From Ottowia sp. oral taxon 894 (GTDB lineage Bacteria > Pseudomonadota > Gammaproteobacteria > Burkholderiales > Burkholderiaceae_C), in the NCBI RefSeq assembly GCF_001262075.1, contig NZ_CP012073.1:558001-622000 (forward strand): a stretch of 64,000 nucleotides of DNA, read 5' to 3'. Below are positions 45,966 to 53,270 of this stretch, one piece after another. The first letter of the stretch is position 1. Each line of letters opens with the position of its first letter. The notes under the pieces are model-generated. The model was given only the letters and a program-made list of their open reading frames with translations, was not told where the DNA came from and searched no databases. Position numbers and translations under genes: made by a program.

Positions 45966-47174
45966 ATGTCTGCCCCTGCCGAAGCGGCCTCGCCTCACAC
46001 CATGAACACCTACGCCCGCCTGCCGGTGGCCATGGAGCGCGGCGCAGGCTGCCGCCTGTGGGACGTGAACGGCAACCGCTATCTGGACGCGCTGGCCGGC
46101 ATTGCCGTGAACACGCTGGGCCACGCCCATCCGAAGCTGGTGCCCGCCTTGCAGGAGCAGGTGGGCAAGCTCATTCACTGCTGCAATTACTACCACGTGC
46201 CCGATGCCGAGCGGCTGGCGGCGAAGCTGGCCGCGCTTTCGGGCATGACCAACGTCTTTTTCTGCAACAGCGGGCTGGAAGCCAACGAGGCCGCCCTCAA
46301 GCTGGCGCGCAAATACGGCCACGACAAGGGCATTGCCAATCCGCAGATCGTGGTGTGCGAAAAAGCCTTTCATGGCCGCAGCATCGCCACGCTCAGCGCC
46401 ACGGCCAACCCGAAAGTGCAAAAGGGCTTCGAGCCGCTGCTGCCCGGCTTCATCCGCGTGCCGCTCAATGACATTGAGGCGCTGAAAAAAGCCACTGACG
46501 GCCATCCGGATGTGGTGGCCGTGTTCTTTGAAACGATTCAGGGCGAAGGCGGCGTGAACCCCGCGCGCGCCGAATACCTGCGCCAGCTGCGCCAGCTTTG
46601 CGACGAGCGCGGCTGGCTGATGATGATTGACGAAGTGCAGTGCGGCATGGGCCGCACCGGCAAGTGGTTCGCGCACCAGTGGGCGGGCATCACGCCTGAC
46701 GTGATGCCGCTGGCCAAGGGCCTGGCCTCGGGCGTGCCCGTCGGCGCGGTGGTGGCTGGCCCCAAGGCCGCCCACATCTTCCAGCCCGGCAACCACGGCA
46801 CCACTTTCGGCGGCAACCCGCTGGCCATGCGCGCGGGCGTGGAAACCATCCGCATCATGGAAGAAGAGGGCCTGGTGGCGCATGCCGGCGAGGTGGGCGC
46901 ACATCTGAAAGAGGCGCTGCAAACGGCGCTGGGCGGCACGGCGGGCGTGAAAGAAGTGCGCGGCCAGGGCTTGCTGATCGGCATCGAACTGGACCGCCCC
47001 TGCGGCGCGCTGGCGCTGCGCGCCTTGCAGGCGGGCCTGCTCATCAGCGTGACCGCCGAGCGCGTGGTGCGCCTGGCGCCGCCGCTCATCCTCACGCAGG
47101 CCGAGGCGGACGAAATCGTCTCCATCCTCGTTCCGCTGATCAAAACCTTTCTGAAAGAAAAAGCCGCGCCATGA
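45966..47174 (+). CDS. argD: acetylornithine aminotransferase
   Basis: A PLP enzyme that converts N-acetylglutamate semialdehyde to N-acetylornithine. The 402-residue chain has LDALAGIAVNTLGHAHP, NVFFCNSGLEANEAALKLAR, AFHGRS, LMMIDEVQCGMGRTGKWF (PLP Asp), and the Schiff-base Lys in VMPLAKGLASGVPVGA. AAGGA precedes ATG 45966. Its stop overlaps the argF start by four bases, so the two are co-translated. Confidence 0.95.
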   Translation: MSAPAEAASPHTMNTYARLPVAMERGAGCRLWDVNGNRYLDALAGIAVNTLGHAHPKLVPALQEQVGKLIHCCNYYHVPDAERLAAKLAALSGMTNVFFCNSGLEANEAALKLARKYGHDKGIANPQIVVCEKAFHGRSIATLSATANPKVQKGFEPLLPGFIRVPLNDIEALKKATDGHPDVVAVFFETIQGEGGVNPARAEYLRQLRQLCDERGWLMMIDEVQCGMGRTGKWFAHQWAGITPDVMPLAKGLASGVPVGAVVAGPKAAHIFQPGNHGTTFGGNPLAMRAGVETIRIMEEEGLVAHAGEVGAHLKEALQTALGGTAGVKEVRGQGLLIGIELDRPCGALALRALQAGLLISVTAERVVRLAPPLILTQAEADEIVSILVPLIKTFLKEKAAP

Positions 47175-48100
47175 CCGCACCCGCCCCCATCAGGCACTAC
47201 CTTCAGTTTTCCGATTTCACGGCGGACGAATACGCCTACCTGCTGGAGCGCGCCGCGCTCATCAAGCGCAAATTCAAGGCCTACGAAAAACACCACACGC
47301 TCACCGACCGCACGCTGGCGCTCATCTTTGAAAAAGCCAGCACCCGCACGCGCGTGAGCTTTGAGGCGGGCATGTACCAGCTGGGCGGCAGCGTGGTGCA
47401 TCTGACCTCGGGCGACAGCCAGCTGGGCCGCAGCGAGCCGGTTGAAGACACCGCGCGCGTCATCAGCCGCATGGTGGACGCCGTGATGATCCGCACCTTC
47501 GAGCAAGAGCGCCTGCAGCGCTTTGCCGCGCACTCGCGCGTGCCCGTCATCAATGGCCTGACCAACGAATACCACCCCTGCCAGATCCTGGCCGACATCT
47601 TCACCTACACCGAGCATCGCGGCTCCATCCGCGGCAAGACCGTGGCCTGGATAGGCGACGGCAACAACATGGCCAACACCTGGGCGCAGGCCGCCGCGCT
47701 GCTGGGCTTCGAGCTGCGCGTGTCCACCCCGCGCGGCTATGAAGTGGACACCGCGCTGGCCGCGCTGGACGGCGGCGGCAAGGGCTGGCAGAACTTCGCC
47801 GACCCCCGCCAGGCCTGCGCGGGCGCTGATCTCGTCACCACCGACGTGTGGACCAGCATGGGCTACGAAGCCGAAAACGAGGCGCGCCGCAAAGCCTTCG
47901 CCAACTGGCGCGTGGACGAAAGCCTGATGCGCATGGCCAAGCCCGACGCCCTGTTCATGCACTGCCTGCCCGCGCACCGTGGCGAAGAAGTCACCGCCGA
48001 AGTCATCGACGGCCCGCAATCCGTGGTGTGGGACGAAGCCGAAAACCGCATGCACGTGCAAAAGGCCCTGCTGGAATACCTGCTGCTGGGCCGCCAGTAA
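47171..48100 (+). CDS. argF: ornithine carbamoyltransferase
   Basis: It transfers the carbamoyl group (made by CarAB, also in this window) to ornithine, giving citrulline. The 309-residue chain has the carbamoyl-phosphate site ASTRTRVSFE, HPCQILADIFT, the ornithine-side region TDVWTSMGYE and FMHCLPAHRGEEV. The gap to the next gene, a metal-domain protein, is only 23 bases, so transcription may run on into the fez-like cluster. Confidence 0.97.
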   Translation: MTAPAPIRHYLQFSDFTADEYAYLLERAALIKRKFKAYEKHHTLTDRTLALIFEKASTRTRVSFEAGMYQLGGSVVHLTSGDSQLGRSEPVEDTARVISRMVDAVMIRTFEQERLQRFAAHSRVPVINGLTNEYHPCQILADIFTYTEHRGSIRGKTVAWIGDGNNMANTWAQAAALLGFELRVSTPRGYEVDTALAALDGGGKGWQNFADPRQACAGADLVTTDVWTSMGYEAENEARRKAFANWRVDESLMRMAKPDALFMHCLPAHRGEEVTAEVIDGPQSVVWDEAENRMHVQKALLEYLLLGRQ

Positions 48101-48123: not shown

Positions 48124-48507
48124 ATGAGTTCCGCCGCCCTCGAAATCACCGCCGACACCCCGCCGGCCGCGCTGCTGGCGCACTTCGCGCCGCATCTGAA
48201 AATCGCCCACCAGCTTCCCGGGCGCGTGCGCCTGAAACTGAGCATGAAAGCATTGGACGGCATCAATTTCAGCGCGCTGGAAAGCAGCGCCGACGCTTTC
48301 TCCGCCGTGCTGGGGCAAATTCGCGGCGTGCGCGCCATCAAATGGAACCTGCTGGCGCGCTCCTGCACCGTGGAATACGACACGGCCATCATCCCTGATG
48401 CAGCCTGGCCCGACCTGCTCGCAGGCGCGGACAGCGCCGCCGCCCAGGCCCTGCACGCCATTCTTGAAGAAACCCATGCCAGCCTCCGCAGCGCCGCCCA
48501 TGCCTGA
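48124..48507 (+). CDS. fezC: HMA2-type metal-domain protein, FezC-like
   Basis: A 127-residue protein whose core (residues about 25-100) is a heavy-metal-associated-like ferredoxin fold of the HMA2 type: IAHQLPGRVRLKL, FSAVLGQIRGVRAIKWN, ARSCTVEYD. It lacks the CxxC of copper chaperone HMA domains. Small HMA2 proteins next to a P1B-6-type ATPase mark ferrosome (fez) loci, where iron is stored in membrane-bounded bodies. The ATPase of this cluster has a matching domain at its own N-terminus (LPGL-type RGRVRYRYRL). The assignment rests on domain and context. Confidence 0.62.
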   Translation: MSSAALEITADTPPAALLAHFAPHLKIAHQLPGRVRLKLSMKALDGINFSALESSADAFSAVLGQIRGVRAIKWNLLARSCTVEYDTAIIPDAAWPDLLAGADSAAAQALHAILEETHASLRSAAHA

Positions 48508-49183
48508 TGCAGCAGCCTGGCCGGCCACCGCCGCCGCGCTGCGCGCCGCGCTGCAAGACGAGCAGGCCGCCTACGCCTACTACAGCGCCGCCCTGGCCGC
48601 CTTTGGCAGCTACGCGCCCTGGCCCGCGCTGCACCAGGCGTGCGGGCAGCGCATCCAGTCGCTTGCGGCGGCTCTTGCCGCGCTGGGCCAGCCTGCGGGC
48701 ATCGCGCCCATGACTGCGCCCATCGCCCCGCCCCGGCTGGGCGCGGGCTGGCGCGCCAGCATCGAGCGCGCCATGAACGGCTGCATTGCCAGCGCCGGCC
48801 TTTACCAGCGCCTGCAAACGGCTCCCGTCAGCAGCGCAGCCGCCCGCCTGTTCCAGCGCGCGCAGTCTGATCTGCTCACGCGCCACCTGCCCGCCTTGCA
48901 GCGCGCCTGGCAGGCCGCCGCCGACCTGGAGCGCTACCACGCCCTGCAAGGCATTGCGCCCGCCCAGGCCCACACCCGCCACGGCCTCATTGGCGACACC
49001 GTGGAGCAGCTGCTGGCCCTGCTTTCCCGCCAGGGCGGCCTGTTCGGCCTGGCGGGCGCCTTGTTGCGCGCCGCCCATCCGGCGCTGCTGGCGGGGGCGT
49101 TCACCGGCAGCGCCGCCGTCCAGGGGATGCGACACGCGCGCACCCCAGCCCACCCACCGCAACCCCACAACCAGGAGAACTGA
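48476..49183 (+). CDS. helical, ferritin-like-looking protein of the fez-like cluster
   Basis: A protein of about 235 residues, overlapping the end of the preceding gene. ATG 48476 follows a GAAGAAA sequence; ATG 48500 is an alternative. It is Ala-rich and helical. The first helix has LQDEQAAYAYYSAALAAF and a later one LERYHALQGIAPAQAHTRHG, spaced as in four-helix bundles of the ferritin-like type, but I cannot assign di-iron ligands with certainty. The C-terminal part has a hydrophobic segment (LLRAAHPALLAGAFTGSAAV) that could sit on or in a membrane. Confidence 0.6.
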   Translation: MPASAAPPMPDAAAWPATAAALRAALQDEQAAYAYYSAALAAFGSYAPWPALHQACGQRIQSLAAALAALGQPAGIAPMTAPIAPPRLGAGWRASIERAMNGCIASAGLYQRLQTAPVSSAAARLFQRAQSDLLTRHLPALQRAWQAAADLERYHALQGIAPAQAHTRHGLIGDTVEQLLALLSRQGGLFGLAGALLRAAHPALLAGAFTGSAAVQGMRHARTPAHPPQPHNQEN

Positions 49184-49186
49184 CTC

Positions 49187-49693
49187 ATGTTGCCTTTGAT
49201 TCCCTTCATCGCAGGCGCAGCCGCCGGCGTCGCGGCCACCGAGCTGTGGCGGCGCGGCAAAGTGCAAAGCGCCGTTCAGGCCGCCAGCGGCAAGCTGCGC
49301 GCCAGCGCCGCCAGCGGCCTTGAAAGCGTGCGCCAGAGCAGCGCCAACCTGCGCGAAACCGTGGCCGACGCCCTGCACGACAAATGGCAGGCCCTGCGCG
49401 GCGGCAAGCACGGCCAGGAGCAGGCCGGCCAGGCCGACCCGGCCCAGCCCGCTGCCATACCCGCCCTGCCCGCGCCCGAAGACCAGGCCCGCCAGCCCGC
49501 CAAAGCGGACAAGGCGGCGCAGCCCAGCGCCCGCAAACCCAGGGCGGCTGGCAAGCGCGCCGCCAAGCCCGCAACGAGCGCCGCCGAAGCCAGCGCGCCT
49601 GAAGCCGCCAGCGAACCGGCGCGCGCCGCCAAGCCCGCCCGCCGCCGCCCGCCGCGCAAAAAGGCTGCCGCCCCGGACTCTGCTGCTGAATGA
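49187..49693 (+). CDS. small membrane protein with Lys/Ala/Pro tail, fez-like cluster
   Basis: A 168-residue protein with one N-terminal glycine-zipper membrane segment (LIPFIAGAAAGVAATELW), an amphipathic helix (residues 30-75) and a long Lys/Ala/Pro/Arg tail. It resembles YtxH-type proteins in layout only. AGGAG precedes its ATG. The basic tail might bind polyanions or other components on the cytosolic face of a vesicle. No family is recognised. Confidence 0.65.
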   Translation: MLPLIPFIAGAAAGVAATELWRRGKVQSAVQAASGKLRASAASGLESVRQSSANLRETVADALHDKWQALRGGKHGQEQAGQADPAQPAAIPALPAPEDQARQPAKADKAAQPSARKPRAAGKRAAKPATSAAEASAPEAASEPARAAKPARRRPPRKKAAAPDSAAE

Positions 49694-50175
49694 TGGCCGC
49701 CGCCCCGTTTGCCCCCGCCTTCGCCACGCCCTGGCCCGCTGCGGATGCCGCCGCAGGCGCGCCCTGGCCCGCGTCTGCCTTAGCGGCATGGCCCGCATCC
49801 GCGTGGCCTGCACCCGCATGGCCCGCGCCGTGGCAGGCCCCGCCTGCGCAGACAAGCGGCGCGCCCGTCGCCGTCGAGCAGCGCACCCTTGCCGATGAAT
49901 TCGTGCGCGGTTTCGTCACCAGCGGCCTGCTCGCCGCCTTGCAAAGCCAAGGCTGCCAGCCCCGGCTGGACCGCCGCACGCTGCGCTTGGCCGTGCAAGG
50001 CGGCGCGGCGCTGGCCAGCGGCGTGGCCGCCATGCGCGCCCTGCGCGGCGCGCAATATGCCCAGGCGCTGCTCAGCGTCGCCGCAGGCGCTGCCGCCGTG
50101 GCCGCTGCCGAATACTTTTTGCAAACACCTCACCCTTCCAACCAGGAAACCGCTCATGGCCAAGAACCAGACTAA
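49690..50175 (+). CDS. WPA-repeat membrane-associated protein, fez-like cluster
   Basis: A 161-residue protein overlapping the previous stop (ATGATG). The N-terminus (1-50) is low-complexity, with repeats of W-P-A (ALAAWPASAWPAPAWPAPWQ). The middle has RTLADEFVRGFVTSGLLAAL, and the C-terminal third is a hydrophobic Ala/Gly helix pair (AVQGGAALASGVAAM, YAQALLSVAAGAAAVAAAEY) with glycine-zipper spacing. No family is recognised. Aromatic-proline repeats suggest self-association. Confidence 0.62.
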   Translation: MMAAAPFAPAFATPWPAADAAAGAPWPASALAAWPASAWPAPAWPAPWQAPPAQTSGAPVAVEQRTLADEFVRGFVTSGLLAALQSQGCQPRLDRRTLRLAVQGGAALASGVAAMRALRGAQYAQALLSVAAGAAAVAAAEYFLQTPHPSNQETAHGQEPD

Positions 50176-50704
50176 CCGCGACAACACCCAGCAAACCTTC
50201 CAGAACAACGCCCAGCAGGGCGACTGGAACCAGTGGAGCGCCGCGCAGCAAGCCGCTGCACAGCAAGCCGCCCAACAGGCCGCTTACTGGGCCGCCCAGC
50301 AAGGCCAGATGCCCTGGGGCCAGCCCCAGCAGCCGTGGGGCCAGCAGCCCTGGGACGCCGCCTGGGCGCAAGGCGCGCCCGGCTACGCCCCGGGTGCTTT
50401 CCCCGGCGCTTATCCGGGCGCTTATCCGGGCGCTTTCCCCGCTGGCGCGGCCGCCCAGACGCACGGCACGGGCTGGCTGGGCTGGCTCAGCAACCGCCAG
50501 ATGGAGCAATTCATCATCGGCCTCGTGCTCGGCGGCGCGGCCGCCTACGTGCTGGGCGACGCGGACAAGCGCGCGCGCCTGCTGCGCATGGTGATGAAGC
50601 TCTATGCCGGCGTGGCCGGCAGCGTGGAAGAGTTCAAGGAGCAAATCGCCGACCTCAAGGCCGAAGTGGCCGCCGAACATGGCGGCTTTGCCGACGAAGA
50701 CTGA
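50156..50704 (+). CDS. Gln/Trp and GAYP-repeat membrane protein, fez-like cluster
   Basis: A 182-residue protein starting at ATG 50156 (AGGAAA site), overlapping the previous gene by 20 bases. The first 100 residues are Gln/Ala/Trp-rich, then PGAFPGAYPGAYPGAFP tandem repeats. One membrane segment follows (FIIGLVLGGAAAYVLG), and then an amphipathic acidic helix (VEEFKEQIADLKAEVAAEHG). Tyr/Pro/Gln repeats before a glycine-zipper anchor fit a scaffold or condensate-forming role on a vesicle surface. That is inference. Confidence 0.65.
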   Translation: MAKNQTNRDNTQQTFQNNAQQGDWNQWSAAQQAAAQQAAQQAAYWAAQQGQMPWGQPQQPWGQQPWDAAWAQGAPGYAPGAFPGAYPGAYPGAFPAGAAAQTHGTGWLGWLSNRQMEQFIIGLVLGGAAAYVLGDADKRARLLRMVMKLYAGVAGSVEEFKEQIADLKAEVAAEHGGFADED

Positions 50705-51038
50705 TCCTGCCCGCCCCGCAGGCGGCCTGCCGCATCTGGCCCGCTGCCTGCGGCCCGGCTCCAGCCCGCCCCCGCGCGCGCCGCTGTTCCACGCAGGCGC
50801 ATCGCTGGTCCTGGCAAGGCCTGCAAAGGCAAGGCAAAGGCTGTTTTCGCTCCTTGATTGATAGCATGACCTCGCCGCCAATAAAGCGACAACGGCCTTT
50901 TGGGCGCCCCTGAATTTGCTCCTTTTTTTGGTGTCCGTTTCGCCCGCCTGAAAGACCGCCGCCGCTGGCCCGCGCCTTCCGCCTTCTGCCACTCCGCCTG
51001 CGCGGCCCTCACCCACCCCCTGCCGACCCGCCCCCGCC
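50705..51038. other. gap within the fez-like cluster
   Basis: No gene is seen in these 334 bases. They hold repeat A in reverse orientation (50846-50923). No clear terminator or promoter is evident, so the ATPase gene may be read through or have its own weak promoter here. Confidence 0.55.
50846..50923 (-). repeat. dispersed intergenic repeat A, copy 8 (inverted)
   Basis: Reverse complement of the element: TTCGCTCCTTGATTGATAGC, CATGACCTC, then CCCTGAATTTGCTCCT. The CCACTAGGAC core is replaced by GCCGCCAATAAAGCG. It is the only near-complete copy on the minus strand. Confidence 0.8.
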
Positions 51039-53270
51039 ATGCCTTCCAGCCCCGCCTCCCGAAACCTGCCCGCGCAAGCCGCGCGCCTGTTCGCCTCGCT
51101 CACGCCCGCGCACCAGAGGCGCGGCCGCGTGCGCTACCGCTACCGCCTCACGCCCGGCCTGCCCGCGCTCGCGCCGCACGCGCTACAGCGCATGGCGCAA
51201 GAAATACCGGGCGTCACCCGCGTGCGCCTGAACACGGCGGCCCGCTCCATCGCCCTGCACTATGAGCCGGGGCGCACCGGCCCCGAAGCCATCGCCCAGG
51301 CCCTGCTGCGCCTGCCCGCGCTGGCTGCCACCGGCGCTTGCGGCACGGCGCTGGCCGCCGATTGCAGCCACGGCGAAAGCGGGGGCCTGATGGGCGCGGG
51401 CGGCGAAGTGCTCGCCAGCGCCGCCCTGCTGCTGACCACGCGCAAGATGCCCCAGTCGCTGGGCCGCCCCGCCACCCTGGCCGTCTCCCTGCCGCTGTAT
51501 GCCGACGCGCTCAAAGACCTGTTCACCGAAGGGCTGAACTCCCACGTGCTCGAAGCCCTGGCCGTGGCCATCTCCACCGCCAGCGGCGATCAGCTCGCCG
51601 CCAACACCACCCTGTTCATGCTGGCGCTGGGCGAATACCTGGAGCACTCCATCGCCCGCCGCTCTGATGATTTGCTCAAGCACCTGTTGCACCCTGACGC
51701 GGGCAGCGTCTGGGTCGAGCGCGAAGGCAACGAAGTGCAAGTGAGCGCCACCGACGTGCAAGTGGGCGACACCGTCATCTGCGCCGCCGGCAACCTCATC
51801 CCCGTGGACGGCACCGTGCTCGGCGGCGAAGCCACCGTGAACGAAGCCAGCATGACCGGCGAAAGCGTGCCCGTCGTGCGCCGCCGGGGCGACACCGTGC
51901 TCTCCGGCACCGTGGTCGAAGAAGGCCGCGTGCGCGTGTACGCCGAGCGCGTGGGCGCAGGCACCGCCAGCGCGCGCATCGCCAACTACGTGCAGCACGC
52001 CCTGCAAGTCAAAAGCGGCACGCAACTGGCCGCCAGCCGCCTGGCCGACAAGCTCGTGCCCGGCGTGCTGGGCCTGGCGGGCGCGGCCTGGCTTTTCTCG
52101 GGCGACTGGCGGCGCGCCGCCGCCGTGCTCCAGGCCGACTACGCCTGCGCCCTCAAGCTCGCCACGCCCGTGGCCTTCAAATCCGCCATGTACGCCGCCG
52201 GCCGCCAGGGCCTGCTCTTCAAGGGCGCCGACGCGCTGGAGCGCCTGGCCGAAGCCGACACCTTCGTCTTCGACAAAACCGGCACCCTCACCACGGGCCG
52301 CCTGGCTGTGACCGACACCTTCGCGTATGACCCCAACTTCGGCCCGGCCGACCTGATCGACCTGGCCGCCTCCGTTGAAGAACACTACTTTCACCCCCTG
52401 GCGCAAGCCGTGGTGGAAGCCGCCCGCCGCCAAAGCGGCCGCCATTTCGACCATGAAGAAGTGCGCTTCATCGCCGCCCACGGCGTGGCCAGCGTGGTGC
52501 AGGGCAAGCGCATCGTCGTCGGCTCGCGCCACTTCGTCGAAGAAGACGAAGGCATCGACATGAGCGCCTATCTGGACGACATCGGCCGCCTCATGCAAGA
52601 AGGCAAAACGCCCCTTTACATCGGCTTTGGCGGCAAGCTGCTGGGCATCATCGGCCTGAAAGACACCGTGCGCGACAACGCCGCCGAAACCGTCGCGCGC
52701 CTGCGCGCGCTGGGCGCCAGGCGCATCGTCATGCTCACCGGCGACCACGAAGACCGCGCCGCCGAACTCGCCCGCCACCTGCGGCTTGACGAATACCACG
52801 CCCAGCTCCTGCCCGAAGGCAAGGCCACCCTGCTCTCGCAAATGAAAGCGCAGGGCGCAAAAATCGCCTTCATCGGCGACGGCATGAACGACGCCCCCGC
52901 CCTGGCCGGCGCGCATGTGGGCATTGCCATGCAGCGCGGCGCCGACCTGGCGCGCCTGACCTCCGACATCGCCCTGCTCGAAGACGACGTAGGCCGCGTG
53001 GCCGACGCCAAGGCGCTGGCCGCCGCCACCATGCGCCGCATCGACGGCAACTTCAAATTCACCGTCGCCGCCAACACCAGCATCCTCGCCGCCGCCGCCG
53101 CTGGCTGGCTCACCCCCGTGGCCTCCTCCGTGCTGCACAACGGCAGCACCATCGCCATCTTGCTCAACGCCCTGCGCGGCGGACTGGCCAGCCAGGCCAA
53201 AAACGCCCAGGAAGCCAAAAACGCAGCCCGCGCCAGACGCGCAAAGCCAGCAGCCCCGGCCGCTGGCTGA
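51039..53270 (+). CDS. fezB: P1B-type metal ATPase of ferrosome type, FezB-like
   Basis: A 743-residue P-type ATPase. Residues 15-85 form an HMA2-like domain without CxxC. The actuator has MTGESVPV (near 275), the phosphorylation site is DKTGTLTTGR (Asp412) and the hinge is GDGMNDAPA (near 613). In the metal-site helix, the usual CPC or SPC is replaced by DYACALKLATP (367-377): one Cys, with Tyr, Asp and Lys around it. This non-standard motif, the HMA2 domain and the small partners fit the P1B-6 group, whose member FezB loads iron into ferrosomes. Another divalent metal is possible. A good terminator follows. Confidence 0.75.
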   Translation: MPSSPASRNLPAQAARLFASLTPAHQRRGRVRYRYRLTPGLPALAPHALQRMAQEIPGVTRVRLNTAARSIALHYEPGRTGPEAIAQALLRLPALAATGACGTALAADCSHGESGGLMGAGGEVLASAALLLTTRKMPQSLGRPATLAVSLPLYADALKDLFTEGLNSHVLEALAVAISTASGDQLAANTTLFMLALGEYLEHSIARRSDDLLKHLLHPDAGSVWVEREGNEVQVSATDVQVGDTVICAAGNLIPVDGTVLGGEATVNEASMTGESVPVVRRRGDTVLSGTVVEEGRVRVYAERVGAGTASARIANYVQHALQVKSGTQLAASRLADKLVPGVLGLAGAAWLFSGDWRRAAAVLQADYACALKLATPVAFKSAMYAAGRQGLLFKGADALERLAEADTFVFDKTGTLTTGRLAVTDTFAYDPNFGPADLIDLAASVEEHYFHPLAQAVVEAARRQSGRHFDHEEVRFIAAHGVASVVQGKRIVVGSRHFVEEDEGIDMSAYLDDIGRLMQEGKTPLYIGFGGKLLGIIGLKDTVRDNAAETVARLRALGARRIVMLTGDHEDRAAELARHLRLDEYHAQLLPEGKATLLSQMKAQGAKIAFIGDGMNDAPALAGAHVGIAMQRGADLARLTSDIALLEDDVGRVADAKALAAATMRRIDGNFKFTVAANTSILAAAAAGWLTPVASSVLHNGSTIAILLNALRGGLASQAKNAQEAKNAARARRAKPAAPAAG

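Follow-up and report, generated by a model that had tools for sequence, protein, structure and literature searches.

Organization of the six-gene locus

The window analysed here is a stretch of 64,000 nucleotides (nt) from Ottowia sp. oral taxon 894 (assembly GCF_001262075.1, contig NZ_CP012073.1, positions 558,001 to 622,000 of the forward strand), whose genome is a single contig of 2.93 Mb and is 99.96% complete. A first-pass annotation had proposed that positions 48124-53270 of the window hold a ferrosome (fez) locus made of six same-strand genes, five of them packed or overlapping, and this arrangement was found in the sequence. The first five open reading frames (ORFs) overlap or nearly touch and encode five small proteins, named P1 to P5 in gene order, while the sixth follows after 334 nt and encodes an ATPase. 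The genes are as follows.

P1, 48124..48507, + strand: 127 amino acids (aa); HMA2-domain protein, with GRVR replacing CxxC and no transmembrane (TM) stretch in a hydropathy scan
P2, 48476..49183, + strand: 235 aa; ferritin-like, DUF2202-related helical domain followed by an ExxH...H...E segment; a TM segment is predicted at the C-terminus
P3, 49187..49693, + strand: 168 aa; putative glycine-zipper TM segment at the N-terminus, Ala/Lys/Pro-rich tail
P4, 49690..50175, + strand: 161 aa; Pro/Ala/Trp-rich N-terminus, putative TM region rich in Ala/Gly, no convincing Pfam family
P5, 50156..50704, + strand: 182 aa; Gln/Ala/Pro/Gly-rich N-terminus, putative glycine-zipper TM segment, charged C-terminal helix; DUF5132/YtxH-like
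FezB-like P1B-6-type ATPase, 51039..53270, + strand: 743 aa; N-terminus weakly HMA2-like

P1 and P2 overlap by 32 nt, P2 and P3 are spaced by 3 nt, and the P3/P4 and P4/P5 overlaps are 4 and 20 nt, respectively.

Conservation of the gene set

Named genome contigs were scanned with the ATPase, and the best 80 of 130 confirmed loci were kept (the loci L005 and L018 are apparently one contig entered twice, as their lengths and match sizes are equal). For the 72 of these 80 loci whose sequence extends 2.6 kb or more beyond the ATPase match on its upstream side, each window protein was searched alone at E<=1e-3, which placed homologues of P1 upstream of the ATPase in 68, of P2 in 30, of P3 in 35, of P4 in 67 and of P5 in 71 loci; a family profile recovered P3, as distinct from P5, in 68 of 72. 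That every one of the small ORFs recurs in named loci, on the upstream side of the ATPase, shows that they are not chance ORFs. Since the sample was drawn by the ATPase, it is silent on copies of the small genes elsewhere. Variable small membrane proteins had been named beforehand as a part of ferrosome loci; here it is P2 that varies, and P3, P4 and P5 are common to most relatives.

The loci come, among others, from Lautropia, Thauera, Azoarcus, Aromatoleum, Rhodocyclus, Azotobacter, Azomonas, Aeromonas, Ectothiorhodospira, Magnetospirillum, Azospirillum and Rhodoblastus, and the operon is kept across alpha-, beta- and gammaproteobacteria. In the Azospirillum and Aeromonas loci the six genes encode an HMA2 plus DUF4405-like protein, an HMA2 protein, P3, P4, P5 and the ATPase. 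A divergent related cluster is carried on a Cereibacter plasmid (L090), where the ATPase is 46% identical and lies near FeoA, TonB receptors and FecR. The genome samples, in which few candidates were scored per genome (three for the family and two for the class), held the ATPase in 2 of 299 family genomes at E<=1e-100, the window's own among them, and in 1 of 369 class genomes at E<=1e-130, which is the window's own. This rarity sits oddly with the 80 loci of the contig scan.

The ATPase is P1B-6-like

The ATPase matches heavy-metal P-type ATPase models and carries DKTGT; its N-terminus, which had been noted as HMA2-like, does resemble HMA2, though weakly (E 0.025). The copper and zinc subgroups P1B-1 and P1B-2 have CPC as the hallmark of TM helix 4 (TM4), and CPC is present there in CopA, in ZntA and in the remaining three P1B ATPases of this genome, but the window ATPase has ACA instead. 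The motif [S/A]CA in TM4 belongs to P1B-6. Many relatives read SCA, and in a 92-row alignment (which includes the window's copy twice) the first position of the motif is S in 72 rows and A in 17. In TM helix 6 (TM6), HN is found in 87 of the 92 rows; the five rows lacking it are two truncated ones and the genome's three other P1B ATPases, two of which have other residues at this position while the third does not align there and lacks HN downstream of GDGxND. HN in TM6 has been described as a feature of P1B6 transporters (PMC9374683).

In a 28-row tree, several rows of which are long-branched, the ATPase falls inside a 20-row clade (99/98), apart from Escherichia coli CopA and ZntA. The clade also takes in Deinococcus ATPases encoded beside DUF6110, one Fusobacterium ATPase and one Rhodococcus ATPase encoded beside DUF1490. 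The P1B-6 assignment of the first-pass annotation is thus borne out by both motifs and by the tree, and a grouping with copper, zinc or cobalt pumps, one of the results that it had named as speaking against it, was not seen, the comparison being with these two E. coli pumps. Judged in this way, the ATPase is P1B-6-like, as is expected of the FezB of a fez cluster. The solved structures related to it by sequence are of copper, zinc and other P-type pumps, with no P1B-6 pump among the best 60 of 95.

P2 is a ferritin-like protein

The head of P2 has a ferritin-like four-helix fold. Among 31 members of the P2 family, 13 match DUF2202 in Pfam, and weak matches to Rubrerythrin (7), Coat_F (5) and COQ7 (4) were also obtained; for the window P2 by itself, Pfam gave nothing notable (OmdA, E 0.11), and the family profile found just bacterioferritin (E 0.18) and flagellar FliS (E 0.31) among the PDB sequences. 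P2 is probably a membrane-anchored protein, ferritin-like and DUF2202-related with a predicted C-terminal TM segment; its description as a helical protein of unknown kind was discarded. A related cluster on an Arcobacter plasmid (L089) includes a DUF2202 protein.

At the positions of the ferritin ligands E / ExxH / E / H, the window P2 reads E, C, R, C, H. The full set of five ligands is retained by 12 of 30 members, and the losses of the window copy recur in five Lautropia loci. Although the ferritin site is often lost, the residues E152, H155, H169 and E177 (window numbering) are invariant across all 30 members, and these ExxH...H...E residues are a candidate second metal site. Compared with the DUF2202/ferritin-like family, the window copy differs in lacking three of five ligands and in its added ExxH...H...E segment and predicted TM segment. 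A genome-wide search with PF00210 (E<=0.001) gave one match, at genome positions 1276429-1276845, whose sequence reads as Dps; thus no other ferritin or bacterioferritin was found in the genome by this model. At least two papers (PMC12574912 and PMC10669011) mention ferrosomes as well as ferritin-like proteins, but among the literature matches listed, no title connects fez operons with a protein of this kind.

P1, an apparently soluble HMA2 protein, is distinct from FezC

P1 matches Pfam HMA_2 weakly (E 1.1e-5; 25.8 bits, below the 30-bit cut-off), yet its aligned family does so in 21 of 21 members at E<=0.1. The family conserves GRxR, N75, S80, Y85, D86 and W95; the window copy has GRVR and no CxxC, in agreement with the earlier description of an HMA2 protein without CxxC. 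That annotation had further equated this protein with FezC, which in Desulfovibrio magneticus is described as a DUF4405-like cytochrome (PMC10979944). The equation did not hold, and P1 was rejected as FezC: it has no TM stretch in the hydropathy scan, and no DUF4405 match is listed for its family at E<=0.1. From these features, P1 is best described as a soluble HMA2 protein that is not FezC.

A protein combining HMA2 and DUF4405-like parts is instead encoded elsewhere in the genome, at genome positions 1985086-1985643, approximately 1.37 Mb from the operon, between genes that are read as housekeeping genes from their sequences. It belongs to a second HMA2 family found in many loci, here called FezC-like, with a C-terminal hydrophobic part (a DUF4405-like hairpin) and two invariant histidines (H162 and H176 in the window genome's copy; 31 of 31 members). 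HMA_2 is matched by 31 of 31 members and DUF4405 by 27 of 31 at E<=0.5 (best 1.9e-4); the window genome's protein scores E 1.4e-47 against a family profile that includes it. The FezC-like gene lies directly upstream of the operon in Azospirillum, Aromatoleum and Aeromonas, and downstream on the opposite strand in Thauera, Azotobacter and three Lautropia loci.

P3, P4 and P5 are small, repeat-bearing proteins

The hydropathy scan yielded one stretch above threshold in each of P2, P3, P4 and P5, glycine- or alanine-rich in the last three. The scan is simple and insensitive, because the ATPase itself yields just one such stretch. Repeat-rich parts are N-terminal in P4 and P5 and C-terminal in P3; these three are the small membrane proteins with repeat-rich regions that had been picked out before. 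P5 members match DUF5132 (17 of 28) and YtxH (13 of 28) weakly (best 1.9e-5), while the window P5 itself has no match at E<=0.1. P3 members gave weak ZapG-like (4 of 16) and YtxH (2 of 16) matches, and P4 members 18 scattered weak Pfam matches, each in at most 3 of 22. On these matches, P5 is placed in a DUF5132/YtxH-like family, and P3 and P4 are without a convincing family. The view that all four middle proteins are of unfamiliar families therefore survives for P3 and P4, but not for the DUF5132/YtxH-like P5 or the ferritin-like P2.

DUF1490 and DUF6110 were not listed at E<=5 for any of the six window proteins, nor at E<=0.1 for the P3, P4 and P5 families, and a DUF1490/DUF6110 identity was set aside for P3-P5. 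The motif DLHDHDH is not present in the sequences of P3-P5.

Lineage and neighbourhood

Three of 29 congeneric genomes, the window's and two others, have the ATPase above 60% identity; 17 of the 29 reach a completeness of at least 90%. A 20-row tree joins the window ATPase to its counterparts from Lautropia dentalis and a second Lautropia (99/96), and not to those of the two congeners, of which one is represented by a partial row. This grouping suggests transfer; it fits transfer between lineages in either direction.

Two neighbours outside the system, named by the first-pass annotation and by reading of their sequences, precede the operon.

argD, 45966..47174, + strand
argF, 47171..48100, + strand, 23 nt upstream of P1

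In the available flanks of the five Lautropia loci, no match to argD or argF was found.

The operon as a probable ferrosome-type system

Taken together, the operon is probably of the ferrosome type in its proteobacterial form, iron transport and granule formation being what such a system would perform. Its conservation across three proteobacterial classes, and the position of the Cereibacter cluster beside FeoA, TonB receptors and FecR, were counted for this reading. In R. palustris (Rhodopseudomonas palustris), ferrosomes are described as made from six genes (PMC12016538). Its fez operon, RPA2333-2338, has six genes as here, which suggests homology; by contrast, the operon of the window includes the ferritin-like P2, and the FezC-like gene has its place in another part of the genome. 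Rhodoblastus acidophilus, which we take to be of the same order as Rhodopseudomonas, has P1, P3, P4, P5 and the ATPase in a row. The fez sets of D. magneticus and Clostridioides difficile are smaller; as far as their available descriptions go, these share with the window a FezB-type transporter and, in D. magneticus, a DUF4405-like FezC but include no ferritin-like part. What stands of the first-pass ferrosome proposal is thus a P1B-6-like ATPase within a conserved set resembling six-gene fez operons, its FezC assignment apart. The new element is the ferritin-like protein within the operon.

In such a system, the ATPase would pump ferrous iron from the cytosol into small inner-membrane vesicles. 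P3, P4 and P5, with their repeat-rich tails and presumed glycine-zipper membrane segments, may gather the pump and shape the vesicle membrane, and P1 may regulate or feed it. The FezC-like protein encoded elsewhere, a putative heme protein, could adjust the redox state of iron. The ferritin-like head of P2 would be held beside the vesicle membrane, where it may be catalytic in those relatives that keep the ligands; in the window genome it may rather serve as a scaffold, or as a carrier via the invariant E152/H155/H169/E177.

Several points weigh against this interpretation. Iron as the substrate of the ATPase is something that we infer, and the likeness to fez comes from the gene number of RPA2333-2338 and the architecture of the relatives, not from proven fez sequences. 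The Rhodococcus ATPase within the 20-row clade is encoded beside DUF1490 and has HN in TM6 yet CPC in TM4, and DUF1490 proteins serve zinc efflux in Mycobacterium tuberculosis. The window copy of P2 has lost three of the five ferritin-site ligands. In this genome the FezC-like gene is not linked to the operon, its product matches DUF4405 at E 0.15 (under the cut-off), and such a gene was seen in 46 of 80 stretches, five of which were added by eye and some of which are short. For regulation, 80 of 84 loci had enough sequence, and Fur and FNR boxes in each stretch were compared with 60 first-order resamples. The best Fur-like site reached p<=0.05 in 9 and the best FNR-like site in 10 of the 80 stretches, where approximately 4 were expected for each, a weak enrichment, and the window has no outstanding Fur- or FNR-like site (its best Fur-like matches cover 9 and 10 of 19 positions).

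Fur-like sites matching 15 of 19 positions in A. vinelandii (Azotobacter vinelandii) and 16 of 19 in Telmatospirillum are present upstream of the cluster, and the fez genes of C. difficile are described as being under Fur control (PMC12574912). The 334-nt gap before the ATPase (50705-51038) could be the seat of a second promoter. An FNR-like site matching 8 of 10 positions lies in this gap. A promoter scan (0 found versus 0.4 expected) and a count of terminator-like sites (8 versus 5.7 expected) were uninformative.

The strongest competing explanation, which we consider unlikely, is a metal-efflux platform at the plasma membrane, in which the ATPase would expel Zn, Mn or Fe and P3-P5 would act as PacL-like clustering or stabilising scaffolds with no storage vesicle. 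The PacL-CtpC platform is alike in that small repeat-bearing TM proteins are encoded with a P1B6-like ATPase: PacL1, as described, consists of a TM segment, a cytoplasmic part with Glu/Ala repeats and a disordered region; zinc resistance mediated by CtpC requires it, and DUF6110 relatives are as a rule encoded together with P1B6 transporters (PMC9374683). The layout of P5 is comparable to that of PacL1, and the Rhodococcus ATPase beside DUF1490 shares both clade and HN with the window ATPase. However, the window set differs from PacL-CtpC in having no listed DUF1490 or DUF6110 match, no DLHDHDH in P3-P5 and [S/A]CA rather than CPC in TM4, and its ferritin-like and putative heme-type partners would fit storage better than efflux. 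An improbable explanation, that of a relocated or decaying set which can still be read but has ceased to function as a ferrosome here, would account for the ligand losses of P2, the separation of the FezC-like gene, the placement behind argF and the presence of the ATPase in only 3 of 29 congeneric genomes, but is opposed by six frames that are all open, an ATPase that keeps DKTGT and its TM4 and TM6 motifs, the retention of the ATPase and most small genes in the five Lautropia loci with the same P2 losses, and the four invariant P2 residues.

Implications

Ferritins and ferrosomes are usually described as separate routes of iron storage. The presence in ferrosome-type operons of a ferritin-like protein that is conserved and probably anchored in the membrane suggests that both routes can be combined, and P2 is a concrete candidate for the protein that oxidises or nucleates iron at the vesicle. 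We tentatively propose that the ferrosomes of many beta- and some gammaproteobacteria may be hybrids, in which a pump-filled membrane compartment is joined by a ferritin-like ferroxidase or nucleator tethered through P2. The lineage to which the window and Lautropia belong would then have given up the ferroxidase site and kept the membrane-proximal ExxH...H...E, turning P2 into an iron carrier or nucleator. The core part list of this ferrosome-type operon (HMA2, P3, P4, P5, FezB-like and FezC-like) could be removed gene by gene in tractable hosts such as A. vinelandii.

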